Notes under the pieces: generated by a model
The model's database searches: none
Seen by the model: the letters and a program-made list of their open reading frames with translations, nothing else
Told to the model about the DNA's origin: nothing
Source: Planctomycetaceae bacterium
GTDB taxonomy: Bacteria; Planctomycetota; Planctomycetia; Pirellulales; Pirellulaceae
Direction: 5' to 3'
NCBI GenBank assembly: GCA_947463915.1
Contig: CANHVO010000032.1
Coordinates: 1-32,159 of the forward strand
Length of the DNA: 32,159 nucleotides
Part shown: in pieces, positions 1,707 to 21,130 of the stretch
Numbering within the stretch: the first letter of the stretch is position 1
How the letters are laid out: each line of letters opens with the position of its first letter
Program-made: the position numbers and the translations under genes

Positions 1707-2759
1707 TCATTTGGTTCCTAATAACTTCTCCAGAAACACATTGTCGCTAAATTCGCGGCCTTCGCTGTCGCCCATACGGATGACAACCATTTCGAGAGAT
1801 GGAATGACATAGCACCGGTTCTTGCCTTTGCCCATGGCCGCCACAGTGTCAGCCGGTGGTTGGAAACTTCGTTTCCGACGCTCATCAAGGAGTCGTTTCA
1901 CTTTGGGAGCGATGTTCCGACCATTTGCGGCCTCGGTACTATCTTCATCGCCTCCGCCTAGAAGCCACCATGTCATGCCATACGAAGGTTGAGCCGTTGA
2001 TGGCTTAATGCATTCTGCGAGTATTGACGCAGGCACAATTTCGGTTTCATTCCAATTTCCCCCTAGTCGGACCAGCTCTCCGAACTTCACCCACTCGCGC
2101 GGTGTCAAAAAAGCACCCGCAGGCAAGTTGATATTGCCATCGAAATCCTTCCGCCAAAAGCCGACCTTCATTCTAATCGGATCGAGCACTCGTCGATGAA
2201 GATAAGCCTCGACCGACTCATGCTTGGGTTCAAGCTTGCGTCGCATCAGTTCGCCAAAGCATTGGAATGGAATTGGGCCATAGGAAAATTTCTTGCCGGG
2301 TTCTGCCGTTGCGTTTGCCATGGAAACGGCCCGTTTGTAGCTCGGCACTGTTCCATTGTCGCCGCCATCGATGCCGCTACTTAGGCTCAACAATTGGCGA
2401 ATCGTGACCCGCGACTTGCGTTTGTCTTCCTTCCATTCGGTGAGCGTATCGGCAACTTTTTCATCGAGTGTCAACAGTCCGTCGTGTACAGCGCATGCCG
2501 CCATCACACCGCAAAAGCTCTTCGTACCGCTGGCTAACAAGTGTGGTTTGTCAGCGGTCCAGCTCTCAGCGTAATCCTCAAAAACAACTTTTCCTTGAAC
2601 CATCACCAAAACCCCTGTCCCATTCTGCGAGTGAGAATAGGCGGCGGCAACTTTGCAGGCTTCAGTCGTTGTTGGAGATTGTGCGTGAGAAGTCCCGGGT
2701 GCGGTGAAGTAAATGGCTATCGTCAGGATGTTGACTACGAGATTATTAAATGCATGCAT
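1707..2759 (-). CDS. Exported serine hydrolase, beta-lactamase/class C-like
   Basis: This 350-residue protein has a signal peptide (about 1-26) and the layout of the beta-lactamase-related serine hydrolase family. It has a nucleophile motif SGTK (Ser77, Lys80), the block RVTIRQLLSLSSGIDGG around residue 120, a candidate catalytic Tyr160 in KKFSYGP, and a C-terminal strand CYVIPSLEMVVIRMGD. The third active-site motif is atypical (MGKGKN where HxG or KTG is common). Members include esterases, D-amino-acid peptidases and carboxypeptidases; the substrate cannot be told. The ATG at 2759 was chosen over one at 2813 because it begins the signal peptide and avoids overlapping the upstream esterase gene; it lies 19 nt beyond that gene. 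It is the last gene of the sigma-led run. Confidence 0.88.
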   Translation of the reverse strand: MHAFNNLVVNILTIAIYFTAPGTSHAQSPTTTEACKVAAAYSHSQNGTGVLVMVQGKVVFEDYAESWTADKPHLLASGTKSFCGVMAACAVHDGLLTLDEKVADTLTEWKEDKRKSRVTIRQLLSLSSGIDGGDNGTVPSYKRAVSMANATAEPGKKFSYGPIPFQCFGELMRRKLEPKHESVEAYLHRRVLDPIRMKVGFWRKDFDGNINLPAGAFLTPREWVKFGELVRLGGNWNETEIVPASILAECIKPSTAQPSYGMTWWLLGGGDEDSTEAANGRNIAPKVKRLLDERRKRSFQPPADTVAAMGKGKNRCYVIPSLEMVVIRMGDSEGREFSDNVFLEKLLGTK

Positions 2760-2778
2760 GGGATGTCGAAGAAGTTGC

Positions 2779-3750
2779 TTATTGAGTTGGCCGTAGGGTG
2801 TTCGGCTTAGCAACTTCGGGCTTGATGGTTACTTGCTCACCAAATGCCGAACGATAAAAATCCCAGTTGGAATCACCGAGCGCTATGAGTGTCTTCATCG
2901 GATTATGGTCCACGCCGGGTAATATAGTCCAAGTGTGTGGAATCTGTAGCTTTTCAAGATGATCATGAAAGTCACGATTGGGACCAAACGTTTCGTCCTT
3001 GTCACCGCAGACTTGTCGAACGAGCGAGCCCTTGATAATAGCCTCAGCATTTTGCTCAGCCAGTCGGCGAGGACTGACGCTCCTAAAATATTCTTGATCG
3101 CCCCCGTAAACTTGCTTCAAGACTTCTGCGGCTCGTTGTCTACCAGCTCGCGGGGCCTGGATGAGTTCGGCTTGCAATGGCCCTCCGCCCATGATGGACA
3201 CCGCTCGAAATAACTCAGTAAATTTGAATCCCAATCTAGCTGCTCCGTAACCTCCCATGCTGTAGCCATCGAGCAATCGCCCTTCGCGTGTTGCGATGGT
3301 GCGATACGTCCCATCGATATGTGGGACAAGTTCTTTGACGACAACGGTCTCCATCGGCACCGATCCGTCCTTCCAATCGACGTACATGCCTTCGACGAGT
3401 CCATTGACGAAGACGATAAAGCATGGCGGAGTCTTTCCTGCTTCGATAGCAGCATCAAAGTGAGCCGCGACTTTCGCTAATCCAGCAATTCCACCGCCCG
3501 ATCCATGCAGCCAATAGACAACCGAAAATCGTCTTTTGGGTTCGCGTTCGAATGCCGAAGGTGTGTAGATGTGGTAACTGACTTTGCCCTTGGCAGCAGT
3601 GCTTTCAAAAGTTTGAAACGACACTCGCGGAGCTTTTACTTCGGGCGTGACCCACGCATGCCGCGATTGGGATTCGACCTGCTGTGCCGTGGAAGAAGCC
3701 ACCATGTGCATTACCAGTAACAAGGTTAGTGCTCGAGTTGGGCAATTCAT
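2779..3750 (-). CDS. Exported esterase, esterase D / PF00756-like alpha/beta hydrolase
   Basis: This 323-residue protein has an N-terminal signal peptide (MNCPTRALTLLLVMHMVASS) and an alpha/beta-hydrolase domain. Visible motifs are the oxyanion-hole region VVYWLHGSGGG (about 77-87), the nucleophile elbow GYSMGG with Ser164, an acid candidate in CGDKDETFGP (Asp250 or Asp252) and the catalytic His282 in GVDHNP. This layout matches the putative esterase family that holds esterase D, tannase/feruloyl esterase-like and XynZ-type acetyl/feruloyl esterases, so it probably removes an acyl group from a sugar or small molecule in the periplasm. The start at 3750 lies 8 nt after the upstream esterase stop and opens the signal peptide; a longer frame to 3885 would overlap that gene and add no signal. 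Confidence 0.88.
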   Translation of the reverse strand: MNCPTRALTLLLVMHMVASSTAQQVESQSRHAWVTPEVKAPRVSFQTFESTAAKGKVSYHIYTPSAFEREPKRRFSVVYWLHGSGGGIAGLAKVAAHFDAAIEAGKTPPCFIVFVNGLVEGMYVDWKDGSVPMETVVVKELVPHIDGTYRTIATREGRLLDGYSMGGYGAARLGFKFTELFRAVSIMGGGPLQAELIQAPRAGRQRAAEVLKQVYGGDQEYFRSVSPRRLAEQNAEAIIKGSLVRQVCGDKDETFGPNRDFHDHLEKLQIPHTWTILPGVDHNPMKTLIALGDSNWDFYRSAFGEQVTIKPEVAKPNTLRPTQ

Positions 3751-3758
3751 GGCTTGTC

Positions 3759-4793
3759 TTATTGCTTCGTTGTTTTGAGAGGACGGCGAGGGTGCTTTTG
3801 GAAAAATTCCCACATCAAGTCGTTTGCTGAAATGTCCATGGTTGATTCGCCGAGGAGCGACACGATTGGTTTCTGCCCGGGCCACGTATGACCGCCGCCT
3901 TCGATTTCGATGAGTACGACTTCGCTATCCTCTTTGCCGCCTCTCCATGTTTTGCGGGTGACCTTCATTTTGTCATCTGCTTTGTCAGGCAGCCGCATGA
4001 TCTCAGGCTCGGTCTTGCAGCCGTTGGCTTTCACCCAGTTCTGAATGGTATGGTCGACGGATCTAAATGACGTAACCTTACTCCGGCCGAGGAATCCCTT
4101 TCCAAAGCCACCTTTGTATGGTGCGAATGCGTCTGCCGTTCCATGGAAATGAATGACCGGCACCGGGCGCTTGTTGTGGGGAGCTTCCATCATTAGCGGG
4201 CCACCGACCGGGGCGATGGCAGCGATGCGATCGGACAACTCCGAGGCCAAGTAATGTGCCATGATGCCGCCATTGGAGAGGCCTGTCGCGAAGACTCGAT
4301 CGGCATCGACGTTGGCTACCATAGCAAGATCATCGAGCAACTCGCGAGTGAAACCTACGTCGTCCACTTTGTTATCCATAGCGTAGCCGCAGCATTCGCC
4401 TCCGTTGAACGTGAGCAGTGTGTTGTCTAACTTGCCCGTGCCATAGGGATATATGACCAGGAAGCCCGCTTCGTCCGCTTTCGAGTTCATTTCGGTTAAC
4501 CGGATTATCCCCTCAGGGTTACTTCCGCCACCGTGAAAGACCAATATGACAGGCGTAGCATTGCTCGCGTCGTATTTCTTGGGGATATAGACGCGGTACC
4601 GTCGCTCAAGCTGACCGACATGCAATGTCCGCGTATGTTCGCCAGCATGGAGTTTACCGATGCCGCTCGTGTCGGTCCGCTTAGGTGAAGCATTGGCTTT
4701 TACTTTTTGCTGAGCATGTACGAACATCGTACCGGTCAGACAAATAAATGCTGCCATAGGAGCGAAAAACGAGACGATCTGTTTTCTGGCCAT
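3759..4793 (-). CDS. Exported PHB depolymerase/feruloyl esterase-like hydrolase (LpqC type)
   Basis: This 344-residue protein carries a signal peptide (cleavage probably near VHAQQ, residue 28) and a compact alpha/beta-hydrolase domain of the polyhydroxybutyrate depolymerase/LpqC group. Visible elements are VILVFHGGGSNPEG for the oxyanion hole, ATGLSNGGIMAH with nucleophile Ser173, HFHGTADAFAPY with Asp221, and GGGHTWPG with His302. The GGGHxWPG ending is characteristic of this group, which includes feruloyl and acetyl-xylan esterases (CE1-like) as well as polyester depolymerases. It is followed after 8 nt by another esterase gene, so the pair is probably co-transcribed. Which ester it cuts is unknown; hemicellulose or pectin acyl groups fit the neighbours. 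Confidence 0.9.
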   Translation of the reverse strand: MARKQIVSFFAPMAAFICLTGTMFVHAQQKVKANASPKRTDTSGIGKLHAGEHTRTLHVGQLERRYRVYIPKKYDASNATPVILVFHGGGSNPEGIIRLTEMNSKADEAGFLVIYPYGTGKLDNTLLTFNGGECCGYAMDNKVDDVGFTRELLDDLAMVANVDADRVFATGLSNGGIMAHYLASELSDRIAAIAPVGGPLMMEAPHNKRPVPVIHFHGTADAFAPYKGGFGKGFLGRSKVTSFRSVDHTIQNWVKANGCKTEPEIMRLPDKADDKMKVTRKTWRGGKEDSEVVLIEIEGGGHTWPGQKPIVSLLGESTMDISANDLMWEFFQKHPRRPLKTTKQ

Positions 4794-4857
4794 AAATTTA
4801 ATTCTGAAAAATTTAAAGAGACACGAGTTTTGAGGGGAACGTTAGAGTCGATTGTGG

Positions 4858-6138
4858 CTACTTTGCGGTTTTGGGTTTCATAGTGATGCCTTCGAGCACA
4901 GCGAGGATTGCGAAGCCGGGAGTCGGGGCTCCATTCTTTCCACTCGCATTGAGGTTGACATTTAACGCGTCTCGCCAAGATTTGTCTTCACCGATCCACA
5001 ACAGACCGCGCGCGAAGTTGTCGGTCCACGTACCGGTAAATCCCTGAGCAAGTGTTTCACCCGCCGCTTGATCCAATCCTCGCGTCACTGCGTCGAGAAG
5101 CGTCGGACGGAAAACATGATCGGCCGGAAGGACGTGCAGCAATTCGAGCAGCTCACGCATCAAGATGTTGTGATACACAGTGCAAGCATTGTGTGCGTCG
5201 AACCAACGCCCGCCGGCCAACTGACCGGGCAGCACTCCTACTTCGGCCTTCATCACTGCGGCGGCGAGATACTTTACCTTATCTGCGTCACGAGTGACTT
5301 CCGCCAGCCTTGCGAGCAATCCAACGCTGAATGCGTTGTAGTTCCAGTTCGAGACCAGCGGCCGAGTGGTCGCCCAATCGCCCGCTCTCCGTGCTGCGGC
5401 AAGATACCTTTCGTCTCGCGTTAACACCCAAGCACTGACAAGTGCTCGACCGCACAAGCCGTTGTCAAACTGCAAACCGCCATCGCTGAAGTCATCCGGA
5501 ATCCAGTCATTGACGACAATCTCAGGCTTATCCTTGATCGCACGCGCGACGATCTGCCCCACTTTATCGCGGGGATTCAACCCCGGACCAATGGGAAATG
5601 GGAAAACTCCGCTGGAATGTTGAAACTTGACGAGCCAGTCTGCACCTGCGCGGACTTGCTTGGTGAGTTCGTCGCGTTTTTCTGGAAAGAGCATGGCTGT
5701 TCGAGCCAGTCCATCGAGCGGGAAGGCCGCTTCGCGCAGACCTGCGTTCATCATGCGTGGATCTCCAGTTGGATTCTTTACCCATGGCAGCCCGCGCTGT
5801 CCGCGCTCTATTTCGCGCAACCACAACTCCTGCGCCTTTACCGATTCGAACGGCTCGGTCACGATTGGCGGATAGTGACGGGTAGCAGTCTCAGGATTCC
5901 CTGCCCATGGCCCAAGCACCGAGATGGCTTTCGCTACTGCGGCCCTCACAGCTACAGCGTCCTGAACTTCGAGTGCTCTTCGGCCTTCTTCCAACGCGGG
6001 CTTCGCAAGTTTTACCGTCTCGGCGGGTGGTCGCTCACCTGGCACCTGTGCGTGAACATCGGCCATGGACAGCATGCAGTAGAGCAAAGGCACGAGAATC
6101 AAAGTTGATTGTCGGAATTTACCGATTAGTCGCTTCAT
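4858..6138 (-). CDS. Exported alpha/alpha-toroid (six-hairpin) protein, possible glycoside-active enzyme
   Basis: This 426-residue protein has a signal peptide (about 1-30) and then a largely helical domain. Features are Trp-, Gly- and Asp-rich loops typical of six-hairpin glycosidase-like folds: AGADWLVKFQHSSGVFPF (165-182), DDFSDGGLQFDNGLCGRALV (215-233), AARRAGDWATT, VSNWNYNAFSVGLLARLAEV (262-281), FDAHNACTVYHNILMREL and TGTWTDNFARGLLWIG. I do not recognise a specific GH, PL or epimerase family, so catalytic residues are not assigned; the acidic loop at 211-220 is a candidate. The ATG at 6138 gives a 4-nt ATGA overlap with the upstream hydrolase, which indicates translational coupling; an ATG 12 nt further upstream is also in frame. 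A role in processing a polysaccharide backbone is inference from fold and neighbours. Confidence 0.8.
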   Translation of the reverse strand: MKRLIGKFRQSTLILVPLLYCMLSMADVHAQVPGERPPAETVKLAKPALEEGRRALEVQDAVAVRAAVAKAISVLGPWAGNPETATRHYPPIVTEPFESVKAQELWLREIERGQRGLPWVKNPTGDPRMMNAGLREAAFPLDGLARTAMLFPEKRDELTKQVRAGADWLVKFQHSSGVFPFPIGPGLNPRDKVGQIVARAIKDKPEIVVNDWIPDDFSDGGLQFDNGLCGRALVSAWVLTRDERYLAAARRAGDWATTRPLVSNWNYNAFSVGLLARLAEVTRDADKVKYLAAAVMKAEVGVLPGQLAGGRWFDAHNACTVYHNILMRELLELLHVLPADHVFRPTLLDAVTRGLDQAAGETLAQGFTGTWTDNFARGLLWIGEDKSWRDALNVNLNASGKNGAPTPGFAILAVLEGITMKPKTAK

Positions 6139-7103
6139 TTCTTTTGCCATTGGTCTTCCTTGTCGAGGACGCTTCGCACGGCGTCGCTATCGAGCCACTG
6201 TCGAGCATCTTTATCGTCGCGGAGATAAGCGTCCCAGAACGCCGTCGTGACTGCAAGCATCGCGCGATGATGATTCGGGTTCCGCCGCCCGGTATCGGCG
6301 GGCAGTGCACGCTCAGTGAACGCTGAGTGTTGGGCATTTTCGAGCACCAATTGGTACTTTGAGTTTGGCGATAGATCGGGGAAGACGACCAGCCGAGATT
6401 TACCATCGGCTCCGCTAATCGGATTGGAGTCATTCGTTCCTGTCAGCAGCATCCAAGGAATCTTCACGTTGCCAAAGGCCTGCTTCGTGTTGCCGTTTGC
6501 AGGTCCGCTTGGGCTCATGATCACGGCCGCTTGAATGCGGTCGTCCGTAAATCCCCTGCCCAGCGGATACGTTTGACCGCTGACCGCTTGCGTTGTCACT
6601 GCCCCGAAGGAATGCCCCGACATACCGACATGGCCCAGATCGAACCGACCTGCAAACGGATGCGAGCCGTCCTTCTTCCAAACTTCAAGTTGATCTAGAA
6701 CCACAGGCACATCCTGCACGCGAAGCAAGAAATCCTTAGGCCCCGCCGCTTTTGTCAACGCTGCCATACGTTGGGCGACCGGTTGGTCTTTCCATACGCT
6801 GTCATCGCTTCCCGGATGTTGTAAAAACACCGCCACATATCCGCGCTTAGCCCAGTGCTTTCCGAGAAACGCCGAGCCTTCTCTGTTACCGCCAAGTCCA
6901 TGACTAAAGAGCACTACTGGCGCGGCCGTCTTGTCCGCAGGCAGATAGACACGGATAGGAATTTCACGCGAGCGCTTCGAATCCTTGATAGCCAAATCCA
7001 CTTGCTCTACCTGGATAGAGGAGGTGAGTATTGGATCGTAATCCGTTCCTCGTCCAGTCTCCAACCAGAGAATCAACATTACCAACGCAAATGCTCGAGT
7101 CAT
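6135..7103 (-). CDS. Exported alpha/beta hydrolase, PAF-acetylhydrolase/dienelactone hydrolase-like
   Basis: This 322-residue protein starts with a short signal peptide and shows an alpha/beta-hydrolase core: VVLFSHGLGGNREG for the oxyanion region (64-76), GMSGHSFGAVT with nucleophile Ser165, GTNDSNP with Asp225, and NAQHSAF with His259. The insertion between the first strands and the GHSFG elbow resembles the platelet-activating-factor acetylhydrolase-like/dienelactone hydrolase group, whose members cut short acyl esters or lactones. A good Shine-Dalgarno (GAGGAG) precedes the ATG by 8 nt. The stop overlaps the start of the toroid gene by 4 nt, and the redoxin gene ends 34 nt upstream, so it is embedded in the operon. 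Confidence 0.9.
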   Translation of the reverse strand: MTRAFALVMLILWLETGRGTDYDPILTSSIQVEQVDLAIKDSKRSREIPIRVYLPADKTAAPVVLFSHGLGGNREGSAFLGKHWAKRGYVAVFLQHPGSDDSVWKDQPVAQRMAALTKAAGPKDFLLRVQDVPVVLDQLEVWKKDGSHPFAGRFDLGHVGMSGHSFGAVTTQAVSGQTYPLGRGFTDDRIQAAVIMSPSGPANGNTKQAFGNVKIPWMLLTGTNDSNPISGADGKSRLVVFPDLSPNSKYQLVLENAQHSAFTERALPADTGRRNPNHHRAMLAVTTAFWDAYLRDDKDARQWLDSDAVRSVLDKEDQWQKK

Positions 7104-7111
7104 GGTATCTT

Positions 7112-7117
7112 CTCCTC
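7112..7117 (-). promoter_or_regulatory. Ribosome binding site for the alpha/beta hydrolase
   Basis: GAGGAG lies 8 nt upstream of the ATG at 7103 on the minus strand. It is one of the few clear Shine-Dalgarno sites in the window and supports this start. Confidence 0.7.
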
Positions 7118-7137
7118 AATTCATCGATATCTCTTAA

Positions 7138-9189
7138 CTATTGGTTTCGGTTTCGGAAGTTCCGTAATCGCTCAGCTTCTTCGAGCGAGATCGATCCATC
7201 ATTGTTCGTGTCGAGCCGCATGAGACGTTGCCTCTGGGATTCGGGGATTTCATCGCGGGTCACTTTTCCATCGCCATTGCTATCCATGCGTTGAAAGATG
7301 GCTCCAAGCACTAGGCCGCCAGAACGAGCCTGAGTGTCCGGCTGATCCGCATCAGTAGATTCCGACGCGTCACTTAAAACTCGATATGTTTCAACATAGC
7401 CAATCATCATCTCGTCAGAGGTCTGCGGTCCCCAGCGGACTGTCTTTGTTGCATCTGGATTGGCCGGATTGTTAGTGCTATTGTCGAATACTGCTGTCAC
7501 CTTAACGGTCGATCCGGCTGGAATGACACGCGGCTGCGCATAGTCATACCGCAATTGCCAATTGAAATCGTAGTTAGGAATATCGAGGAGTGTTTCTGGC
7601 TTGCCATCTGCCGTTGTCAACTCGTACTTGAACGCTTTGCCGCGAACATGCATGTGAGCCATGTACGCCAACACATTGATGTCGCGCGGGATGCGTCGCG
7701 AAACGGATTCGATGTGGTTCGCTTCGCCCGGTCGAATGTTAAGGTCTCGATCCGCGAGTGCCAATGTTTCCACCGCATACTTGGGTGGCCCCTTTGCGAA
7801 AATCAACCCCATACGCAATTGGTCCTGAGTCGCTTTGCCGTTGGGAGTGTAATGAATCTGAAAACTGACGGTCGCTCCTGCGGGCAGTTTCCTTGCGAAT
7901 CCAGGTGGATAAATTTGCAACGTGTTGCCCGGAACGTAAGCTGCCCAGTATCCGCCGATTCCTTCTTCTCGATCTAGAATGCGTCCTGAACCTTTGGTAT
8001 GCACATTGACGATAACGTGATGCACAACACTCCGGTCGGTAGGCACAATTTCGTAACCTTGCACCCAACGGTCCTCTGTCAGCGTCGTCTCGGCGGTGAC
8101 AAACTGATAAGGCATCGTTCCTGTGGCTTTGATTGCAATCGGTTTTGGCAATTGCACGATCAAGTCAGGCTTGCCGATGGTCCATTCTCCTGCAAACTTG
8201 CGAGGCAAGGGCGCATCTTTTGGATCGCCTTGAGGATGATCGCTGGACAGCCATGCCAGTAGATCGCGCTTTTCAGGGGAGGCCAACGAGCGATCATTGG
8301 CCCATGGACTTACGGCGTTACCTGGAATGGGGGCAGCAAACCACGGAGGCATCACTCCCCGCTCGACGACATCCTTGATCATCGGTGCGTGGGCCATCAC
8401 GTCCTTGTAGGTATCCAAGGCAAACGGAGCTACGCCACCATCGCGATGGCACTCGAGGCAGTGCTTCTGCACGAGCCTAGAAATATCGGCATGGTAGGTC
8501 AGTTGCTCAGCAGTTGCGGAGTTTTCCTTTGCTGCCAAAACACAGCCAGGAGCTGCAGTTGCTGAAATAATAGGTGACTCGTTTGCAAGGACAGCGTCGA
8601 TTGCATCCGCTAAAAAACGATTCTTCGGGGCATCTATTGAGTATCCAAATCCGTACTGATCATCTATGGCACCGTGATAAACAACGGTTCGAGCCGAATC
8701 AAGAACGATCACATCGGTCGTGGATTTGGCATTCACAGCGCGAGCAATTTTTCCATCCGTGTCGGCTGCATAAATCGCATCGCTGCTCAGCATTTCTAAT
8801 GCGGACTGCATTTCGTTTGCCTTATCCGTTTCGACTGCATTTACCAAGACGAACGCGACGTCGCGAGCGGAATATGTCTTTGCCAGTTCCACGAGCGTCG
8901 GCAAGTATTTTTTGCTGAGGGGACAACTAGTGCTGGTCATGGCGATAACGCTCGCTTTGCGATTCGAGAAATCTTTAAGCTTATACGTCTTGCCTCTGAT
9001 GTCTTTGAATTCGAAATCGGCGACCATTCCGCCGATGCCATGTTCTCCAGGTATCAGAAGTCGAGGCCCCTGACGAACAACGCTTTTGTCACTAGGAACT
9101 TGTTGAGAATTAGCTGTTTGCAATCCAACGACTACGATTGAGACCGCTAACACAACTGTGTAGCTGATTGAGAACCATCGATAGTTCAT
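7138..9189 (-). CDS. Redoxin - cytochrome c - PHM-like copper monooxygenase - EF-hand fusion protein
   Basis: This 683-residue exported protein joins four parts. Residues 1-28 are a signal peptide. Residues 50-205 form a thioredoxin-like redoxin domain with TSTSCPLSKKYLP (single Cys89). Residues 235-325 hold a haem c motif HCLECH (Cys244, Cys247, His248) with the MPPW motif that often follows in such cytochromes. Residues 335-610 resemble the copper type II ascorbate-dependent monooxygenase fold: His390-His391, His446, His512-x-His514 and Met594/595 match the order and approximate spacing of the CuH and CuM ligands of peptidylglycine monooxygenase. Residues 630-680 contain two EF-hand loops (DSNGDGKVTRDE, DTNNDGSISLEE). 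The ATG at 9189 was preferred over one at 9246 because of its Shine-Dalgarno and signal peptide. The fusion occurs in other planctomycetes as redoxin domain proteins; its reaction is unknown. Confidence 0.88.
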   Translation of the reverse strand: MNYRWFSISYTVVLAVSIVVVGLQTANSQQVPSDKSVVRQGPRLLIPGEHGIGGMVADFEFKDIRGKTYKLKDFSNRKASVIAMTSTSCPLSKKYLPTLVELAKTYSARDVAFVLVNAVETDKANEMQSALEMLSSDAIYAADTDGKIARAVNAKSTTDVIVLDSARTVVYHGAIDDQYGFGYSIDAPKNRFLADAIDAVLANESPIISATAAPGCVLAAKENSATAEQLTYHADISRLVQKHCLECHRDGGVAPFALDTYKDVMAHAPMIKDVVERGVMPPWFAAPIPGNAVSPWANDRSLASPEKRDLLAWLSSDHPQGDPKDAPLPRKFAGEWTIGKPDLIVQLPKPIAIKATGTMPYQFVTAETTLTEDRWVQGYEIVPTDRSVVHHVIVNVHTKGSGRILDREEGIGGYWAAYVPGNTLQIYPPGFARKLPAGATVSFQIHYTPNGKATQDQLRMGLIFAKGPPKYAVETLALADRDLNIRPGEANHIESVSRRIPRDINVLAYMAHMHVRGKAFKYELTTADGKPETLLDIPNYDFNWQLRYDYAQPRVIPAGSTVKVTAVFDNSTNNPANPDATKTVRWGPQTSDEMMIGYVETYRVLSDASESTDADQPDTQARSGGLVLGAIFQRMDSNGDGKVTRDEIPESQRQRLMRLDTNNDGSISLEEAERLRNFRNRNQ

Positions 9190-9193
9190 TTTT

Positions 9194-9199
9194 CTTCCT
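9194..9199 (-). promoter_or_regulatory. Ribosome binding site that decides the redoxin-fusion start
   Basis: AGGAAG followed by four A residues sits directly before the ATG at 9189. It favours this start, which opens the signal peptide, over the ATG at 9246 that directly abuts the anti-sigma stop codon. Confidence 0.65.
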
Positions 9200-9246
9200 T
9201 CTTGCAAGTTCCGATTGAACATGGATTGAAATCGTTTGCGTACCAT

Positions 9247-10293
9247 CTATTTGATCCACTTCTCTGAGGCCAACCCGTTCCAGTTCGATAACACTTTTCT
9301 GCGTAGGTCTGGTTGCGACTTGCGGTTATAGAGCATGAATTGCTTTTCGACATGACCTTCTACTGAGTATTTGCTCTCATCAGCGATACCGGAATCGACC
9401 AAGGTGAACGTTACCGTGCATTCACCGCGTTCTGGAATCATCTGATTCAAAACCAAACGCCGAACCGCCTTCGTTTCGCGATCAACTTCGATCTTTGCGC
9501 TTTGAATACGTCGCTGCCAACGACGCATAGGAGTGGCCGTAATCACATGCAGCGATTCCGATTCATCGGAATACGTGAGTCGGCAGAACTTGAGGAAGCT
9601 ATCAAGTAAAGACTCCAATTCAAGTCCATAAAGATCACCGATGAATTGAAGCGGTACGCCAGCTTCATCTGCCTCGATTTGCATCGCTCGATGCGGTCCA
9701 AGCGTCAGCCAAAACGCGCCCTCAAGATTCCGCCCCCAAACCCAGCGTCGGGTGTTACGATTCATTTCGACATAAAAACGATCGCCTTGCGTGTGAACGC
9801 GAACATCTCTCATTTCATCAATACCAGTCTGATTGTCTTGACTGCTTGATTTCCTTTGCACCTCGACCATGTAAACTCGCTCCACCGGTTGGTGGTGCGC
9901 AATCAACGCGGCGCGAACCACTCGTGTCGGACTTGCTAATGCCGTGTTGTCCCAGCGTCCGACTAAAAACGCAGCGATAATGAATACCACCGCGGCAGCT
10001 ACCCAACTGAGTGGCTTCCAAAAACGGCTCGGCAGAATGGCCGTCCTTACTGAAGCAGAGTCTCCTTGCGTAGAGATAGGTGCTTGGTCTGCAACCAAAT
10101 CAACGAGAGCTGTCAACGGCTCCGCTCCTACGTTTTCGGAAAGCAGTGAGTCCACCAAAAGGTGATCGATCAGCAAATCGCGACCAACCACGTCCGACTT
10201 TAACAACTGACTCAGTTCCGCCATCTCCGAATCAGATGGCTCGCCATCGAGCATTTGCGAGAGGAGATATTCCATTCGTTCAGGCTGACTCAT
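9247..10293 (-). CDS. Single-TM anti-sigma-like membrane protein with a large periplasmic domain
   Basis: This 348-residue protein has a cytoplasmic N-terminus (1-90) of the planctomycete FecR/anti-sigma type (LLSQMLDGEPSDSEMAELSQLL, followed by DLLIDHLLVDSLL). One transmembrane helix follows at about 91-114 (FWKPLSWVAAAVVFIIAAFL), then a periplasmic domain of about 230 residues. That domain alternates short beta-like stretches (RVYMVEVQ, DRFYVEMNR, GAFWLTLGPHRAMQI, KIEVDRETKAVRRLVLN, ECTVTFTLVDSG), which reminds me of LolA/RseB-like beta sheets rather than a FecR domain; this is an impression only. The ATG overlaps the sigma-factor stop by 4 nt, the usual arrangement of a cognate pair. It probably holds the sigma factor at the membrane until a periplasmic signal is sensed. 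Confidence 0.85.
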   Translation of the reverse strand: MSQPERMEYLLSQMLDGEPSDSEMAELSQLLKSDVVGRDLLIDHLLVDSLLSENVGAEPLTALVDLVADQAPISTQGDSASVRTAILPSRFWKPLSWVAAAVVFIIAAFLVGRWDNTALASPTRVVRAALIAHHQPVERVYMVEVQRKSSSQDNQTGIDEMRDVRVHTQGDRFYVEMNRNTRRWVWGRNLEGAFWLTLGPHRAMQIEADEAGVPLQFIGDLYGLELESLLDSFLKFCRLTYSDESESLHVITATPMRRWQRRIQSAKIEVDRETKAVRRLVLNQMIPERGECTVTFTLVDSGIADESKYSVEGHVEKQFMLYNRKSQPDLRRKVLSNWNGLASEKWIK

Positions 10294-10817
10294 GTTGCAT
10301 CAGGCTCCGTTTTGATTTTGCTTTCAATGCAAGCCAGCAGTGCCGCCCGAATCCTATACAGAGTCTGCCGGATGGAGCCTTCCGGTCTGCCGATCCTCTC
10401 CGAGATCGCTTCTATCGCGTGACCTCCGCTGTAACGCAGGTCGATCAACTGTCGCTGAGCGGGCGGTAATTGCTGAAGACATTGATCCAATGCTTCCCGA
10501 CGACAATCCAGTTCAATAAGTCGCCGATCCGCCGCTTCCGCTAGTTGAATCAGCAAACCGTCATCGAAAACCAGTCGCTCTCGGGAATATTTGCGAATCT
10601 GGTTGATCGCTTTGAACCGGGCGATCTGGCTTGCCCAAGCCCAGAAATCGGTCCCTTCCTGAAACTCATCGACTTTAGCCCATAGGGTCGCATTGACCTC
10701 TTGAAGCACGTCCTCTACGTCGGCAGATCGTATCAAAAGACAGCGCACCAGAGCCCTTAGCCGCGATTGATGTCGAGCGATGAGTTGAACGAACGCTGAT
10801 CTAGACTGTTCCTGCAT
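10290..10817 (-). CDS. ECF-type RNA polymerase sigma factor
   Basis: This 175-residue protein has the two conserved regions of ECF sigma factors. Region 2 spans about residues 5-80, with the -10 recognition and core-binding segment SADVEDVLQEVNATLWAK and then FWAWASQIARFKAINQIRK. Region 4 spans about 105-165, with LPPAQRQLIDLRYSGGHAIE and the helix-turn-helix ISERIGRPEGSIRQTLYRIRAAL. It resembles the Rhodopirellula/Verrucomicrobium sub-family. The ATG is preceded by AGGAG at 9 nt. It overlaps the anti-sigma gene by 4 nt and heads a run of eight closely spaced genes down to 1707, so it probably controls that operon, possibly including itself. A TTGACG about 40 nt upstream of the ATG lacks a convincing -10 box. 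Confidence 0.93.
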   Translation of the reverse strand: MQEQSRSAFVQLIARHQSRLRALVRCLLIRSADVEDVLQEVNATLWAKVDEFQEGTDFWAWASQIARFKAINQIRKYSRERLVFDDGLLIQLAEAADRRLIELDCRREALDQCLQQLPPAQRQLIDLRYSGGHAIEAISERIGRPEGSIRQTLYRIRAALLACIESKIKTEPDAT

Positions 10818-10831: not shown

Positions 10832-10937
10832 ACAAGCAAATGTCATCATCGCCCAAATCGTCAACACAAAAATGAACTTTTGCTACAAACAAAGAATTTA
10901 CCTTTCCGCCCGCCCGCATTTCGGAGCTCACAGAATG

Positions 10938-12671
10938 TCATCGAGGAGTCGGTCTTGGCAGGACTTTCGTGCGCTTCGCCCAAGTTTCCCATTTGGCGGA
11001 CATATCGGCAACTCGCTCCGGCTGCGATGCGGCGAGGTCTTTCATCTCTACGCGGTCGGTTTCCATGTCGTAAAGCTCCCACGGCGCGGCGCCGATGGAG
11101 ACAAGTTTCCATTTGCCTTCGCGGATCGCGCGGTTGCCTTCATGTTCCCAGGCCAGGAGACGGGGAGAAAGCGAGGCTGAGCGACCATCGGCTGAATCAA
11201 ACAACGGGCGGAGGCTCATGCCTTCCATCGGAAGCACTTTCCTTCCATCCTGCTCAGCGGGATACTTAGCGCCTGCGATGTCTACGCATGTTGACATGAT
11301 GTCAATGAGATGCGCCGGCTCGTGAACGAACCGACCTTTCATCTTGTCTTTCCCTGTGGCCAAAGGCCAGTGCGCGATGAGCGGCGTACCGATGCCCCCT
11401 TCGTGGCCGTAGTGTTTGTAGAGTCGCCAAGGTGTATTGCATGCGTTCGCCCAGCCCGAGCCGTAGCTCGGAAACGAACCGGGTTGGCCCATCATCGGCA
11501 AATCATCGCCGCGATAAAGTTTATTCGGCAATGCTTGCGTACCCTGGTTGATCCCGGTGCCGGGAACAGGGTTCGGCGTTGGAGTCATCTCGAATCCAAA
11601 TGGCTCCCACTCTGCGCACGCACCATTGTCGCTAAGAAATAGGATGAGCGTGTTATCTAGCTCGCCGTTGGCTCTGAGGTCACTAAGCAGGCGGCCGATA
11701 TTGCGGTCCATCCCCGTGACCATTCCTGCATAAACTGCCATGCGCTGCGCGAGGTCAGCGCGGCGATCGGTTGGCAGCGAACCCCACGATGGGTTGTTGC
11801 CATCCTCGGTCCACGAGCTGAGGCGTTTGGAGGCGACGGGATGGGGAATAGGACTTCGTGGTGTCAGCACGGTGCCCTCAGGTATGAGGCCGCTTTCCTT
11901 CTGCCGCGCTAGGCGTTGCTCACGAATTTTGTCCCAGCCTTGCGAGTAAACTTCCGAGTAGCCGGTCATGTCCTCGCGTTTCGATTGCACAGGGAAATGC
12001 GGGGCCTGATACCCAATGTAGAGCAGCCAAGGGGCGCTCGATTTTCGCATATCGGCTAGGAAGTCCAGAGCATGATCGGTGATCGCGTCGGTTGCGAAGT
12101 ACTCGTCGGTTTTGTATGTGCGCTGCGGACTACCCGCGGGCAACCGAGTCATCATTCGCGGTTCCCATGAGTCAACTCCATATCCGCCGACGAAGCCATA
12201 GAAGTCATCGAAGCCGCGTTTGGTCGGCGTTTCGCTGTCACCGACATGCCATTTCCCCGCAGCAGCCGTGCGGTAGCCGGCAGGCTTAAGCACTTGTGCG
12301 ATGGTCACACAGCTCGCATTCAAAGCTCCTCGATAGCCTGGAAATGCTTCGCCTTTGTCGCCGGCGCCAGGAAACTTCGCGGACTGATCGGATGTCATTA
12401 ACCCAATGCCCGCCTGATGCGGATAAAGACCAGTAAGCAATGACGCCCGGGAGGGACAGCAGCGTGTGAAGGTATAGAATTGCGTGAAACGCAGTCCGTC
12501 CACCGCGAGCGAGTCGAGATTGGGCGTGCGGATCTCTCCGCCATAACACCCGAGGTCTGACCAACCCAGGTCGTCCGCAAGGATGACAAGGATGTTCGGT
12601 TTTTCAGCGGTAGCACTGTCTACGATCAGCCCGAGCAGTACGGCTGCGAAGAGAAGGCAGCGGATTTTCAT
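10938..12671 (-). CDS. Exported Cys-type sulfatase (arylsulfatase A-like)
   Basis: This 577-residue protein has a signal peptide (1-22) and a full sulfatase domain. The formylglycine motif is CCPSR (Cys71 to Arg75, in RCCPSRASLLTGLYPHQAG); it needs formylglycine-generating enzyme, not encoded in this window. Metal-binding Asp residues lie in LVILADDLGWSDLGCYGG (Asp33, Asp34) and LFLSDNGACAEWE, and GKWHVG supplies the usual active-site Lys and His. The C-terminal subdomain (WKLVSIGAAPWELYDMETD) is typical of arylsulfatases. The likely substrate is a sulfated polysaccharide or sulfate ester; the subfamily was not assigned. It stands alone, with 202 bp before it and 120 bp between its stop and the sigma-factor gene. 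No Shine-Dalgarno is visible. Confidence 0.93.
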   Translation of the reverse strand: MKIRCLLFAAVLLGLIVDSATAEKPNILVILADDLGWSDLGCYGGEIRTPNLDSLAVDGLRFTQFYTFTRCCPSRASLLTGLYPHQAGIGLMTSDQSAKFPGAGDKGEAFPGYRGALNASCVTIAQVLKPAGYRTAAAGKWHVGDSETPTKRGFDDFYGFVGGYGVDSWEPRMMTRLPAGSPQRTYKTDEYFATDAITDHALDFLADMRKSSAPWLLYIGYQAPHFPVQSKREDMTGYSEVYSQGWDKIREQRLARQKESGLIPEGTVLTPRSPIPHPVASKRLSSWTEDGNNPSWGSLPTDRRADLAQRMAVYAGMVTGMDRNIGRLLSDLRANGELDNTLILFLSDNGACAEWEPFGFEMTPTPNPVPGTGINQGTQALPNKLYRGDDLPMMGQPGSFPSYGSGWANACNTPWRLYKHYGHEGGIGTPLIAHWPLATGKDKMKGRFVHEPAHLIDIMSTCVDIAGAKYPAEQDGRKVLPMEGMSLRPLFDSADGRSASLSPRLLAWEHEGNRAIREGKWKLVSIGAAPWELYDMETDRVEMKDLAASQPERVADMSAKWETWAKRTKVLPRPTPR

Positions 12672-12873: not shown

Positions 12874-14652
12874 CTAATGGATGATCAAGCGCGCTGGTTT
12901 ATCGGTGGCGACTACATGTCCCACGTCATTGCCATCTTCATCCATCAGAATCCAAGTGTGCCCTACAAAAGTCTTCAGTAGGTAGCGACTCGCGCCGGCA
13001 ATCACGATAGGTGCATGACGTTTGCCACTTTCGTCGAGCCACACTAGCTTTACCGACTTCTGCGTTTGGTTTTGGAACAAAAGCGAGACATTACTTGTGG
13101 ACGCTTTTGATGCAGGGGCAGGCTGGTTATTGATAGACGTTAAATCCAGTTCTGCTTTGAACGCATTGATGCCGGGTTGAGACTCGTGAATAGGGGCGAA
13201 ATGAGCGGGGACAAGTGACCGCATTTCAACGAGCTTTGCGGTATGCTCTGCAGTGGGAGCCCTGGCGAGATTAGTCCACTCGTGTGGATCGGACTCGATG
13301 TCGTAAAGTTCCTCTTCATCACCCATGTAATGAATGTAACGCCACCTCTCAGTACTGATGGCATAGTTCTGCGGATTGTCGAGATGTGTGATCGCGGCAT
13401 GCGGCCATTCGACTTTTGGATCACGCAGAAGCGGCACAAGGCTGCGGCTGCTAATGTCTGCTTTGGTTGGCAGGCCGCAAAGTTCAGTGACGGTGCTGAA
13501 GAGGTCCACCAAACTAACCGGTCGATTGCACTCTGAGCCTGCCGTGGTACCTTGCGACAAACCCGGTACTCCTTTGGGGACGCGAATCATCAATGGGACG
13601 CGTGCGCAGACTCGCCAACCAGTAAACTTCTGCCAATGCTCTTTCTCGCCGAGGTGCCAACCGTGATCGCTCCACAGAACAACAATCGTGTTGTCGCGAT
13701 GCGGACTCTTCTCCAAGGAATCGAGCACACGACCAAGCATGGCATCGGCGTAATGAATAGAAGCAAGGTAGGCTTGGATACCATGTTTCCACTGATTGTG
13801 TTCCTGGATGTGAGCGAAGTAGCGATTGCGAGCAATGCGTTGGCCGGCGGAAGACAGGTCGTCGAGATCGTCTGTCTTGTATCCAAGCGGGAGTTGAATA
13901 CTCTCGAGCGGAAATGGCTTAAAATACTTTTGTGGTACGAACCAGGGCTCATGTGGTCTATAGATACCGCAAGCGAGGAAAAAGGGTTTTTCCACCGGTT
14001 TGCTTAACTGTTCGCTGATCCACTTCGTGACAAGCCAGTCGCCGCCGTATTCCTCGTCGGTCACATCCAGCGATGCCCAATCGGTTTCGATGTATTGCCA
14101 GTTGCTCGCTCTTGGCAAACTGATGGGACGCTTTGAGGGATTGAAGGTGCGAGGAAAGGGGTTGTCCTTTTCCTTGGCGGGAAAGTAGTCATCCCAAGAC
14201 TGCGGATCAACCACGTAATGCAGCATTTTGCCTGAACCTGCCGACCAATAGCCATTTTTTGAAAGGTACTTTGGCAACAACTCCGCTTGTGGCATGACTT
14301 CACGCAGCTTCTGCATATTTTGATACAGACCAGATTGGTGAGGCGGCAGACCGCTGAATATCGCAGAGCGCGATGGATTGCAGGACGGTGCTGGGCAATA
14401 TGCATTTCGAAATAACACGCCGCTCGCTGCGAGTCGGTCGAGGTTCGGTGTGATCGATTGTGGGTGTCCGCCCAAGCAACCAACCCAGTCGTTCAGATCG
14501 TCGACTGCGATGAACAGTACATTTGGCTGGTCTGCAACAACCTTCGTATTACCGAAACAGAGAACCAATATCGCCAGAAGGCGCGGGATCGTTCTTTTTT
14601 CTATTGGTAAGATCCTTATGAACGCTTTGAGGACAAATAGAGCAGCGTTCAT
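12874..14652 (-). CDS. Exported Cys-type sulfatase (iduronate-2-sulfatase-like) with a VHL-beta-like C-terminal domain
   Basis: This 592-residue protein has an N-terminal hydrophobic export segment (about 22-40) and a sulfatase domain (43-500). It has VLFIAVDDLNDWVGCLGGHP for metal binding, formylglycine motif CNPSR from Cys91, LWSDHGWHLGEKEHW and a TGWRVCARVPLMIRVP segment as in iduronate-2-sulfatase-like enzymes. After a Ser/Pro/Ala-rich linker, the last 72 residues (521-592; 12877-13092) form a small beta domain: VSLLFQNQTQKSVKLVWLD, then GKRHAPIVIAG, TFVGHTWILMDEDG and PARLII. The order and wording match the VHL beta domain. The ATG lies 2 nt after the S9 peptidase stop, so the two are co-translated. 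The sulfatase substrate is probably a glycosaminoglycan-like or other sulfated sugar; the added domain may bind protein or hydroxylated ligands, which is inference. Confidence 0.92.
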   Translation of the reverse strand: MNAALFVLKAFIRILPIEKRTIPRLLAILVLCFGNTKVVADQPNVLFIAVDDLNDWVGCLGGHPQSITPNLDRLAASGVLFRNAYCPAPSCNPSRSAIFSGLPPHQSGLYQNMQKLREVMPQAELLPKYLSKNGYWSAGSGKMLHYVVDPQSWDDYFPAKEKDNPFPRTFNPSKRPISLPRASNWQYIETDWASLDVTDEEYGGDWLVTKWISEQLSKPVEKPFFLACGIYRPHEPWFVPQKYFKPFPLESIQLPLGYKTDDLDDLSSAGQRIARNRYFAHIQEHNQWKHGIQAYLASIHYADAMLGRVLDSLEKSPHRDNTIVVLWSDHGWHLGEKEHWQKFTGWRVCARVPLMIRVPKGVPGLSQGTTAGSECNRPVSLVDLFSTVTELCGLPTKADISSRSLVPLLRDPKVEWPHAAITHLDNPQNYAISTERWRYIHYMGDEEELYDIESDPHEWTNLARAPTAEHTAKLVEMRSLVPAHFAPIHESQPGINAFKAELDLTSINNQPAPASKASTSNVSLLFQNQTQKSVKLVWLDESGKRHAPIVIAGASRYLLKTFVGHTWILMDEDGNDVGHVVATDKPARLIIH

Positions 14653-14654
14653 GC

Positions 14655-16745
14655 TTATTGAGGTCCTGCTGGTAGATTGTCAAGTAAAAATCGCAGAATG
14701 TGCATCCTAACATGCACCACGGTTCCATCTCCTTCTCTCAGACCGTGATCTCGATTGGGGTAGACCATGTAGTCGAACGGTTTGCCCAAACTAATCAAAC
14801 GATCAACCAATCCCTCGATGATCTGAATGTGCGTATTCGTCTCGCCCGAGCCAGTCATGATTAGTAGTTTGCCTTTGAGTCCTTGCGCAAAGTTGATCGG
14901 GGCGGAGCGTTCATATCCCTCTGGATTGACTTCTCGAGTGCGCATGAAGATCTCTTGAAACCATGCATTGTAAAGATGCGGTTGAGGCTTAGGAACGACT
15001 GCGATGCCGACATGGTAGGATTCGGGTTTTCGGAAAAGTGCGTTGAGAGTGTTTGAGCCACCTCCGCTCCAACCCCAGATTCCCACTCGCTTGGTGTCAA
15101 TGAATAAGCACTGTTTCGCAAGTGCCTTTAGGCCAGCCTCTTGTTCTTCGGTAGACAGTGGACCAAGGCTGCCGAAGATAGTTCGTCTCCAAGCGGCTCC
15201 TTTAGGACATGGAGTCCCACGATTGTCGATCGACGCGACCACGTATCCCAACTCGGCAACCAGTCGGTGGAAATCGATCTGCGCTGCACCCCACTCATTC
15301 AGCACCGTCTGCGCATGCGGCTCGCCGTAGACGTAGATGAATAGAGGGTATTTCTTGGTCGAATCAAAGTTTTTTGGCTTCAAAATCCAAGCATCAAGTT
15401 CGACGCCATTTCCAATATCAAGCTTCAGAAACTCGGCTGGTTGACAAGTCAACAACTTCATCCTGTCGCGAATCGAAGTATTATCCTCTAATACTTTAAT
15501 GACTCGATGAGATTCCACCTCAACGAGTTCATGTACGGGCGGAGTGTTCAGCGAAGAGAATGAGTGGATTGCCCATTTGTTATCCGGCGAAAAGAGGTAA
15601 CTGTGAGTACCGGTTTGATCGTTTGGCGAGATGCGCTGGCTTTTTCCCGACCCATCTAATTCAACTCGATACAGATACTTTTGCGTACCATCCAGTGGCG
15701 AGGCGTAGAAATAATACCACCCATTCGCTTCGTCAACGACAGCGCGGTCAATCATGTCGAATTCATCCGGCGTAAGTGTCGCCAATTCTTTTCCTTCTCG
15801 CGAGTAACGGAACGCATGTCGCCATCCATCTTTTTCGCTAACGACGATAAACTCTTTGCCGCCTCGTATCCAGACGAGTCCCGAGTTCTTTCCCTGACTC
15901 GACTCCACCCAAGCATGATTCGACTCGGAGAAGATCGTTGCCACCGCGCCGCTGGTGCTGACAAGTAGGACGTCGCGTTTGTCCCGAAAGCGACTAAACT
16001 TTTCGATTAGCACCTCGCTAGAGTTCAGTGCCCATTCAACCTGCCCTAAATACATTCCGTCCTCTGGGCAATCGACGGGCAACCAAGTCAATTCTGTCCC
16101 ATCCGTATTCACTACACCGATGCGTTGCTTCTCGATAGTACCGCCAACTCTCGCAAATCGATTCTGCTGAACCTCTGGGTAAGAAGGATCGCTGGGCAAT
16201 AGAACCGCCCGCTGTTGAACGTTGGTGGAGTCAACCTCGACAAACAATACTTTCGAACCATCCGGACTCAATTTGGTGTTTCGATACTCCACGATCCGGT
16301 CCGGCTGGCCTGCAGCTAGAACAACTTCATTTTGGTTCTCCTTATCGATAGCTATGAGCTTCGCATCTTTGGATTGGATTCGAACGCTGCCCTTGGATAG
16401 GCGGCCTTCGTCGCTGGGCTGGATGCCTCTTTTCTTGTCTTCCGACGCAATGCTTCGCTCGCCTGTCCTGCCGTGATAAAACCAAGCCATGGGCTCATTC
16501 GTATTCGAATCGACTTCTTCGACTAAAAATCCTGAGCTATCTCGCAGCCAAGTTGGTTGGAAGGCTTTGGCGCGAAACTCGCCGCGGTTATAGATCGCCT
16601 TCAATCGGGCTTCAGCAGGGCTCTGCCAACTTGAACCAGTAACGGACTGCGCAATTGACGATTTCGTCGCGGGTTCAACAGCAAATACGAAAACTAACGA
16701 AAGCGATGAGAGCAGAGTTTTGCTGGATACATTCCGAAGCGTCAT
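14655..16745 (-). CDS. Exported S9 (DPP IV-like) peptidase, divergent at the catalytic Asp
   Basis: This 696-residue protein has a signal peptide (about 1-32), a beta-propeller N-terminal half with WYFYASPLDGTQKYLYRVELDGSG and LFSPDNKWAIHSFSSLNTPP, and a C-terminal S9 hydrolase domain (about 470-696). The nucleophile elbow is GWSGGGS with Ser560, and the catalytic His is His667 in NRDHGLREGD. At the Asp position the sequence is TGSGETNTH, placing Glu635 where dipeptidyl peptidases have Asp (usual HGTxDDNxH). The DPP IV double-Glu anchor found in the other S9 protein of this window is also missing. It may be an altered-specificity or inactive peptidase. It is followed 2 nt later by a sulfatase and preceded by a 395-bp gap. 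Confidence 0.9.
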   Translation of the reverse strand: MTLRNVSSKTLLSSLSLVFVFAVEPATKSSIAQSVTGSSWQSPAEARLKAIYNRGEFRAKAFQPTWLRDSSGFLVEEVDSNTNEPMAWFYHGRTGERSIASEDKKRGIQPSDEGRLSKGSVRIQSKDAKLIAIDKENQNEVVLAAGQPDRIVEYRNTKLSPDGSKVLFVEVDSTNVQQRAVLLPSDPSYPEVQQNRFARVGGTIEKQRIGVVNTDGTELTWLPVDCPEDGMYLGQVEWALNSSEVLIEKFSRFRDKRDVLLVSTSGAVATIFSESNHAWVESSQGKNSGLVWIRGGKEFIVVSEKDGWRHAFRYSREGKELATLTPDEFDMIDRAVVDEANGWYYFYASPLDGTQKYLYRVELDGSGKSQRISPNDQTGTHSYLFSPDNKWAIHSFSSLNTPPVHELVEVESHRVIKVLEDNTSIRDRMKLLTCQPAEFLKLDIGNGVELDAWILKPKNFDSTKKYPLFIYVYGEPHAQTVLNEWGAAQIDFHRLVAELGYVVASIDNRGTPCPKGAAWRRTIFGSLGPLSTEEQEAGLKALAKQCLFIDTKRVGIWGWSGGGSNTLNALFRKPESYHVGIAVVPKPQPHLYNAWFQEIFMRTREVNPEGYERSAPINFAQGLKGKLLIMTGSGETNTHIQIIEGLVDRLISLGKPFDYMVYPNRDHGLREGDGTVVHVRMHILRFLLDNLPAGPQ

Positions 16746-19669: not shown

Positions 19670-19684
19670 TCAAGTGCGTTCCTA

Positions 19685-20956: not shown

Positions 20957-20964
20957 CGTGGAGG

Positions 20965-20969
20965 CTCCT
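20965..20969 (-). promoter_or_regulatory. Ribosome binding site for the DUF1552 gene
   Basis: AGGAG lies 8 nt upstream of the ATG at 20956 on the minus strand, supporting this start as the head of the DUF1552/DUF1592 pair. Confidence 0.6.
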
Positions 20970-21130
20970 GGCGTAGAAGGAGGTGGTGGATTCAGAACGA
21001 ATCGAGTTGGCGGGAAAGGGCTAAGTGAATTGTTCTGCCCGCACTCAGTGTAGATCGTTTAGCCAAAAACATCCAGACGAACAACTGCAAAACCCTCAGC
21101 CGGGCGCCTACTTGCGACTAGTTCTACAAA

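Follow-up and report, generated by a model that had tools for sequence, protein, structure and literature searches.

What does an extracytoplasmic function (ECF) sigma factor sense, and what does it switch on, when its gene heads a row of secreted redox and hydrolytic enzymes? This question is raised by a DNA stretch of 32,159 nucleotides (nt; hereafter the window, meaning the whole stretch analysed) from contig C32 of a 7.6-Mb draft genome, judged to be planctomycetal by its relatives. Eight genes on its minus strand encode an ECF sigma factor (SIG), a membrane partner (ASF), a thioredoxin-haem-copper fusion protein (REDOX), an alpha/beta hydrolase (ABH), a protein without family (TOR), two further esterases (PHBE and ESTD) and a beta-lactamase-fold hydrolase (BLA). 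An initial annotation had taken them for a sigma-controlled unit that attacks an esterified polymer. Judged from sequence, we regard it as on balance probable that the locus encodes an ECF sigma factor which switches on its own gene together with secreted oxidative and esterolytic enzymes, and which would be freed by a hydrophobic ligand in the envelope.

The sigma factor, its sensor-bearing partner and their promoter-like motif

SIG (10290..10817, minus strand, as are the seven genes that follow) belongs to the Rhodopirellula/Verrucomicrobium family of ECF sigma factors (TIGR02989; 158.8 bits at a cut-off of 124.55). The genome has 58 sigma-like matches, three of them above this cut-off, SIG included. 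Its gene shares 4 nt with that of ASF (9247..10293), an overlap kept in 7 of 7 aligned loci. Searches of Pfam and NCBIfam assigned ASF to no family, and its sequence matched no solved structure. In an AlphaFold2 model made from 25 sequences (mean predicted local distance difference test score, pLDDT, 83.3), a helical N-terminus (residues 1-68) and a linker modelled at low confidence (56-92) precede a membrane-type helix (95-117) and an outer domain (residues 118-327, positions 9313..9942 of the minus strand; range from VIA-align). This outer domain is predicted to adopt the LolA fold, since it aligned with LolA (8cgm; Z 14.1, root-mean-square deviation (rmsd) 4.1, 182 residues aligned), E. coli RseB (Z 10.1, rmsd 4.1, 160 aligned) and MucB (Z 9.3, rmsd 4.1, 163 aligned); Foldseek concurred.

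By gene coupling to the sigma factor and a single membrane helix, ASF is a putative membrane anti-sigma factor, with a presumably cytoplasmic N-terminus. In the model, RseA-like and RseB-like parts appear to be joined in one chain. ASF differs from RseB proper in that the sensor domain is the C-terminal part of the anti-sigma factor itself and not a separate periplasmic protein. In both E. coli and Pseudomonas, the sensor with the LolA fold is a protein of its own that is bound to the anti-sigma factor, and lipids favour release; for MucB, cleavage of MucA is promoted by lipid A, lipopolysaccharide and detergents with alkyl tails and, to a lesser degree, by fatty acids (both according to the available part of PMC7400510). 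The envelope sensor assumed by the initial annotation is thus credible, with a LolA/RseB fold now predicted for it.

A first scan with the single ASF protein as query confirmed no relative, while an alignment-based scan for ASF relatives yielded 18 loci in addition to the window. All are metagenome-assembled genomes of planctomycetes, mostly draft contigs (L131 is from Candidatus Kuenenia stuttgartiensis, which we take to be a planctomycete), and six of the 18 coincide with places in the genomes G049, G009, G015, G002, G025 and G007. Across the phylum, the ASF alignment matched in 46 of 392 sampled genomes, scoring the best five candidates per genome; the best match outside the window's own genome had E 1e-18, and most listed matches cover the N-terminal part only. 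A SIG-type sigma gene (at least 61% identity) stands before ASF in 18 of the 19 loci, and L125, whose contig begins there, shows the sigma end only.

The sigma gene is preceded by the motif TGTTGAC-N15-GACATTTGC (10836..10866, minus strand, 18 nt before the start codon), a predicted sigma-dependent autoregulatory promoter. Its consensus, TGTTGAY-N15-GACATNNGC, was found in front of the sigma gene in all 17 loci with readable upstream DNA and was exact in 15; the inexact copies, in L029 and L130, have two and three mismatches, all in the first box. From motif end to inferred sigma start the distance is 17-25 nt, and the TGA of the first box, GACAT and a later GC are identical in 17 of 17. For 15 loci, mean pairwise identity was highest in the two boxes (0.84 and 0.86), lower in the spacer (0.44) and lowest (0.26-0.28) in the DNA 40-160 nt further upstream.

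Neither the window nor the rest of its genome holds a second exact copy. At least 11 exact copies occur in the 27 genomes of the genus, the window's included; the sigma-gene copy of G025, with two mismatches, is outside this count. Five of the 11 listed copies lie at sigma genes (window, G002 contig C68, G007, G009 and G015) and one before PHBE-ESTD in G002, while the remaining five are inside open frames, the longest of which span 311-643 codons. Shorter frames, up to 275 codons antisense, also overlap the six promoter-placed copies, so the argument is placement before a start and not the absence of a frame. The motif accompanies the sigma lineage. The shared promoter motif that the initial annotation proposed to look for, before the sigma gene and elsewhere, is present at every readable sigma locus, exactly or with mismatches, and before a second esterase operon in one sister genome (G002).

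The copper enzyme and its association with the sensor

The third gene encodes REDOX (7138..9189), a secreted fusion of thioredoxin, mono-haem cytochrome c, a dicopper monooxygenase of the peptidylglycine alpha-hydroxylating monooxygenase (PHM) type and EF-hands. Its frame is open from 9246; a start at 9189, with AAGGAAG just before and a signal-peptide-like stretch just after, gives a gap of 57 nt to ASF. In the model (683 residues, pLDDT 78.5), residues 49-222 form a ResA/thioredoxin-type domain (Z 21.9, rmsd 2.4) and residues 340-606 a PHM-type domain pair (Z 19.5 to PHM, 241 aligned, rmsd 2.8; Z 19.3 to dopamine beta-hydroxylase). Between these parts lie a CXXCH site and a conserved MPPW methionine, and the EF-hands are at the protein end. 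PF03712 matched at 25.8 bits (cut-off 23), and the N-terminal Pfam domain of this family was absent from the scan results.

An alignment of 28 REDOX sequences, of which 27 share 31-57% identity with the protein of the window, shows C244, C247, H248, M280, H390, H391, H446, H512, H514 and M594 as invariant (numbered from start 9189), along with C89 in the thioredoxin domain and C216. The predicted copper ligands are three histidines of the CuH type and two histidines plus one methionine of the CuM type, matched to PHM by motif and not by superposition. As modelled, REDOX therefore shares the two-domain copper fold and the set of six ligands with PHM and dopamine beta-hydroxylase. It differs from both by its fusion to thioredoxin, c-type haem and EF-hands, and identity in the structural alignment is about 17%. 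The natural reading is that REDOX would be a copper monooxygenase with built-in electron carriers.

REDOX is found downstream of the sigma/ASF pair in 13 of the 19 loci. It directly follows ASF in nine (window, L126, L128, L129, L132, L134, L136, L137 and L139). In L133 it is preceded by ABH and an opposite-strand open reading frame (ORF), and in L122, L123 and L127 by PSCyt/PSD1 and DUF1501 genes. It was not seen in L125, L130, L131 and L135, within the 3.4-5.2 kb to the contig end. Some gene order beyond the pair is thus shared among relatives, the absence of which would have counted against the initial annotation. A PSCyt/PSD1 gene stands behind ASF in six loci (L122, L123, L127, L130, L131 and L138), so that a secreted haem protein, REDOX or PSCyt/PSD1, is present in 16 of 19.

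In four of the loci, one protein of 1181-1357 residues combines an acyl-hydrolase domain, EF-hands, PSCyt1, PSCyt2 (DUF1549) and PSD1 (DUF1553). The genes for this hydrolase-PSCyt/PSD1 fusion are at L122 11104-15159, L123 7075-11148, L131 from 2245 and L138 8704-12558; in L127, hydrolase and PSCyt2-PSD1 are adjoining genes.

One locus, L139, separates the sensor from its sigma factor. Here the sigma factor is of another subfamily (35.7 bits to TIGR02989) and no exact motif is present, while REDOX is kept (57%). The N-terminus of the ASF-like protein aligned with that of the window at Z 1.9 only, compared to 20-27 in four others; the LolA-type part reached Z 91.8. Sigma factor and sigma-binding part thus seem to have been replaced, whereas sensor and copper enzyme stayed together. 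Since the sensor stays with REDOX, it may detect something related to REDOX chemistry; L139 is the best hint of this.

We also surveyed the genus starting from REDOX. All 27 genomes hold relatives at E 1e-30 or better, and 11 copies form a class of at least 51% identity across most of their length (a G026 fragment, 55% over 300 residues, was dropped from the count). An ECF pair or its relic lies near 8 of the 11 class members and near none of 15 lower-identity paralogues (Fisher 1e-4, descriptive only because related genomes are not independent). These 15 were hand-picked from many lower-identity matches, two of them (L180 and L181) at contig edges. None has an adjacent ECF gene or these esterases; in L187, a sigma-like ORF lies 5.7 kb away on the other strand. 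Six class members have SIG/ASF orthologues upstream, and in G001 contig C174 a diverged ECF pair lies downstream of an ABH-like gene.

Nine further loci hold distant, mostly split REDOX relatives. Two of them (G002 C54 and G022 C82) have an ECF gene with a one-helix partner of 311-319 residues, and G016 C105 starts with such a partner at the contig edge. In a profile comparison, these partners matched that part of ASF which consists of the helix and the LolA-type domain (96.6%, E 6e-10).

One more member of the REDOX class of at least 51% identity sits in an operon relic without sigma gene, in G001 contig C143 (L178 4603-12015). The relic consists of a one-mismatch promoter, a 40-residue ASF remnant and REDOX, and continues with a sulfatase, a shortened ABH, PHBE and ESTD.

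Hydrolases as variable cargo

Behind REDOX, the window encodes four hydrolases and TOR. ABH (6135..7103) is a platelet-activating factor acetylhydrolase/S15/PETase-like alpha/beta hydrolase with a GHSFG elbow. PHBE (3759..4793, GLSNG elbow) resembles secreted type-1 short-chain polyhydroxyalkanoate (PHA) depolymerases, ESTD (2779..3750, PF00756, GYSMG elbow) is a secreted feruloyl-esterase/esterase-D-like enzyme and BLA (1707..2759, PF00144) a secreted beta-lactamase-fold serine hydrolase with an SGTK motif. The alignments of ABH, PHBE, ESTD and BLA, with 6, 5, 7 and 4 sequences (window included), retain the elbow serine throughout or, for BLA, the SxxK pair. With 170.8 bits, PHBE exceeds the curated cut-off (150) of NF050058 and is a putative type-1 extracellular short-chain-length PHA depolymerase; unlike the known type, it sits in a multi-enzyme gene set headed by a sigma factor. 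ESTD matched the ferulic acid esterase 7xrt at E 6e-16. A plain beta-lactamase resistance role for BLA was set aside: the SGTK serine motif is present, but the neighbours are secreted esterases. TOR (4858..6150), a secreted protein without family and an optional member, gave no PDB sequence match up to E 1 and only a faint Pfam likeness to C5-epimerase/GH88 toroids (E 0.099 and 0.25, failing the cut-offs); matches to it occur in 8 of 392 genomes of the phylum, the window's included.

ABH follows REDOX after 34 nt and overlaps TOR by 16 nt from the first TOR ATG or by 4 nt from an ATG at 6138. Gaps of 64, 8 and 19 nt separate TOR from PHBE, PHBE from ESTD (likely start 3750) and ESTD from BLA (likely start 2759). 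All eight minus-strand ORFs of the initial annotation are thus present with the gaps it gave, and its domain names (the sigma family, AhpC-TSA/Redoxin plus Cu2_monoox_C and EF-hands in the third gene, and three hydrolase types) were borne out. Its statement that nearly all products are exported agrees with hydrophobic N-terminal stretches on all six proteins downstream of ASF (mean hydropathy from 0.97 in ABH, the weakest, to 2.14 in REDOX), signal peptides being judged from hydropathy alone. Among the eight proteins, no Pfam match to the SusC/SusD-like pair of Bacteroidetes-type polysaccharide utilization loci was found. Gaps and relatives point to a continuous operon. A scan for sigma-70-like promoters and terminators was at chance level, with seven sigma-70-like sites versus 6.6 expected.

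Among the relatives, an alpha/beta or beta-lactamase-type hydrolase is encoded downstream in 15 of 19 loci. The four without are L128 and L136, where the contig ends at or soon after REDOX, L130 (4 kb visible) and L139. PHBE-ESTD-BLA follow REDOX in the window's order in L126 and L129, ABH adjoins REDOX on either side in L132, L133, L134 and L137, and ABH relatives occur at comparable loci in G015, G002, G025 and L137. The types of hydrolase vary (two beta-lactamase-type genes in L124, a carboxylesterase/BD-FAE in L125, BD-FAE/S9 in L135 and a beta-lactamase/BD-FAE fusion in L138), and sulfatases and other esterases are also among the changing cargo.

In G002 the set is split between two contigs. 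Contig C68 carries sigma, ASF, REDOX and ABH, while on C54 the motif and about 27 sigma codons run into PHBE, followed by ESTD, with BLA 4 kb further. The sigma-codon stretch is 74% identical in DNA, falling to 29% beyond. A rearrangement has thus placed the esterases downstream of a sigma-promoter copy. This suggests that PHBE-ESTD of C54 may be controlled in trans by the sigma factor of C68.

Divergent from this second promoter copy (L237 3439-7307) lie an ECF gene, a LolA-like partner, a split REDOX relative and a sulfatase gene. In G002 (L237 14884-15837) and G015 (L026 809-1663), a gene of the fatty-acid-hydroxylase family overlaps the BLA end by 4 nt; the window has no such gene at its BLA end. 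A sulfatase gene lies directly upstream of the sigma promoter in the window (10938-12671), and in G015 an ORF before the sigma gene (L025 5404-6042) is 87.5% identical over 80 residues to the end of this sulfatase, the rest being mostly missing. Further along the same strand (12874-31173), a second sulfatase-like gene, two prolyl-oligopeptidase-like genes and two cytochrome/DUF1552-like pairs were named by eye.

A proposed switch, its rivals and its relation to known systems

In the switch that we propose, the N-terminal domain of ASF would keep the sigma factor at the membrane as long as no ligand is bound. A hydrophobic or acylated envelope molecule, either substrate or product of the enzymes, would enter the LolA-type cavity, much as lipids act on RseB and MucB. 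ASF would then change shape or be cleaved, and the freed sigma factor would start transcription of the operon, its own gene included, at the motif. The copper enzyme would hydroxylate C-H bonds, with electrons passing via the thioredoxin and haem modules within the protein, and the esterases would cut ester bonds of like material (polyester, lipid or acylated polymer). The esterified polymer named as target in the initial annotation is still a guess. A sensor of LolA type speaks more for a ligand that is hydrophobic or acylated and, together with the esterase types and the fatty-acid-hydroxylase genes of G015 and G002, favours substrates of like nature without naming one.

Several observations weigh against this proposal. 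Gene order is not conserved: the full eight-gene order is found in the window only, and a fixed eight-gene operon is rejected since it is absent from the other 18 loci. What stands of the conserved order expected by the initial annotation is partial recurrence of order and content, with varying enzymes. L124 and L138 carry the pair but no REDOX in 10 and 7.7 kb downstream. Conversely, three of the 11 close REDOX relatives (G019, G005 and G008, the last on a contig of just 3.7 kb) show no sigma pair nearby, which does not fit the initial annotation as it stood, and REDOX paralogues of about 30-39% identity occur genus-wide without the pair, so the enzyme class does not need the switch. Further motif targets in the window's genome were not convincing: 11 of 12 one-mismatch sites lie inside ORFs of at least 80 residues, and the first start downstream of the twelfth is 126 nt off. 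Internal promoters may exist within the operon. In L139, tblastn aligns the ASF-like protein over 325 residues at 39%, reaching into the N-terminal part, so that the replacement claim rests on the separate N-terminal test. Finally, the modelled LolA fold predicts a fold and not a ligand and is no proof that lipids bind, and the enzyme families, as assigned by sequence, would not name a substrate.

Could the switch serve the cell envelope itself? In a sigma-E-like envelope-stress response, the LolA-type domain would sense the cell's own misplaced lipids or lipoproteins, and the enzymes would repair or remodel the envelope rather than serve feeding. The sensor shares its fold with RseB/MucB and the lipoprotein carrier LolA, and three R. 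baltica ECF factors rise under heat, cold and salt stress (according to the available part of PMC2754498). But close ASF orthologues occur in just 6 of the 27 genus genomes, unlike a core stress system, and the cargo is patchy and differs among relatives (PHA-depolymerase-, feruloyl-esterase- and sulfatase-type enzymes). We consider this explanation rather unlikely.

Another reading limits the sigma factor to itself, ASF and REDOX, with the hydrolases as a separate, shuffled cluster under its own promoters. The hydrolases do vary by locus and occur without the pair, ESTD still following REDOX in G019 and G005. Moreover, the hydrolases of G015 (ABH 84%, ESTD 81% and BLA 92% over 266 residues) are far closer to those of the window than ASF (46%) and REDOX (52%) are, which could reflect either a recent exchange of hydrolases or a rapidly evolving sensor. 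Against such a separation stand the tight spacing in the window, where no gap exceeds 64 nt, and the sigma-promoter copy in front of PHBE-ESTD in G002; we hold this reading to be unlikely. A chance neighbourhood in a genome with so many sigma-like genes and exported enzymes, within a genus that has REDOX relatives throughout, is very improbable in view of the recurrence at 13 of 19 loci, the conserved promoter-like motif, the L139 chimera keeping sensor and REDOX, and the further ECF genes with LolA-like partners beside REDOX relatives.

RpoE-RseA-RseB and AlgU-MucA-MucB control outer-membrane biogenesis or alginate. Like them, the proposed ligand-freed switch would combine an ECF sigma factor, a one-helix anti-sigma factor and a periplasmic lipid sensor of LolA fold, here predicted. 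It differs in that sensor and anti-sigma factor are one polypeptide, the sigma family is TIGR02989 and the output consists of secreted enzymes. Another sigma factor of the same genome, on contig C233, has a FecR-type and not a LolA-type partner. In R. baltica, the ECF gene at RB10049-RB10051 was proposed as a regulator of PSCyt/PSD1 (Studholme, as cited in the available part of PMC2754498). The six loci with PSCyt/PSD1 resemble this arrangement, with an ECF gene beside secreted haem proteins, whereas in the window a PHM-type copper enzyme and esterases take that place.

LolA-fold control of anti-sigma factors (RseB, MucB), PHM, PHA depolymerases and feruloyl esterases are each already known. 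For the combination, which the initial annotation had thought undescribed, we likewise found no prior description in the open-licence literature searched, neither for this operon nor for a planctomycetal LolA-type ECF anti-sigma factor, the promoter motif or a link between sensor and REDOX. The thioredoxin-cytochrome-PHM fusion is also undescribed there, and we found no paper joining an ascorbate-dependent monooxygenase with a planctomycete.

More tentatively, the locus may represent a planctomycetal class of ECF switches that sense hydrophobic ligands, an oxidative-esterolytic type of utilization locus. RseA and RseB functions would be fused, the sensor tuned to the substrate or product of the controlled enzymes, and the pair of sensor and enzyme would outlast exchange of the sigma factor. 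Planctomycetes have ECF factors by the dozen, along with many secreted haem and copper proteins whose purpose is unexplained. The fused sensor, the conserved motif and the natural sensor/enzyme chimera provide a handle on them, in that finding what binds the sensor should reveal what the enzymes act on. The self-contained thioredoxin-haem-PHM fusion, in turn, asks whether PHM-type copper enzymes of bacteria receive their electrons from a source other than ascorbate.

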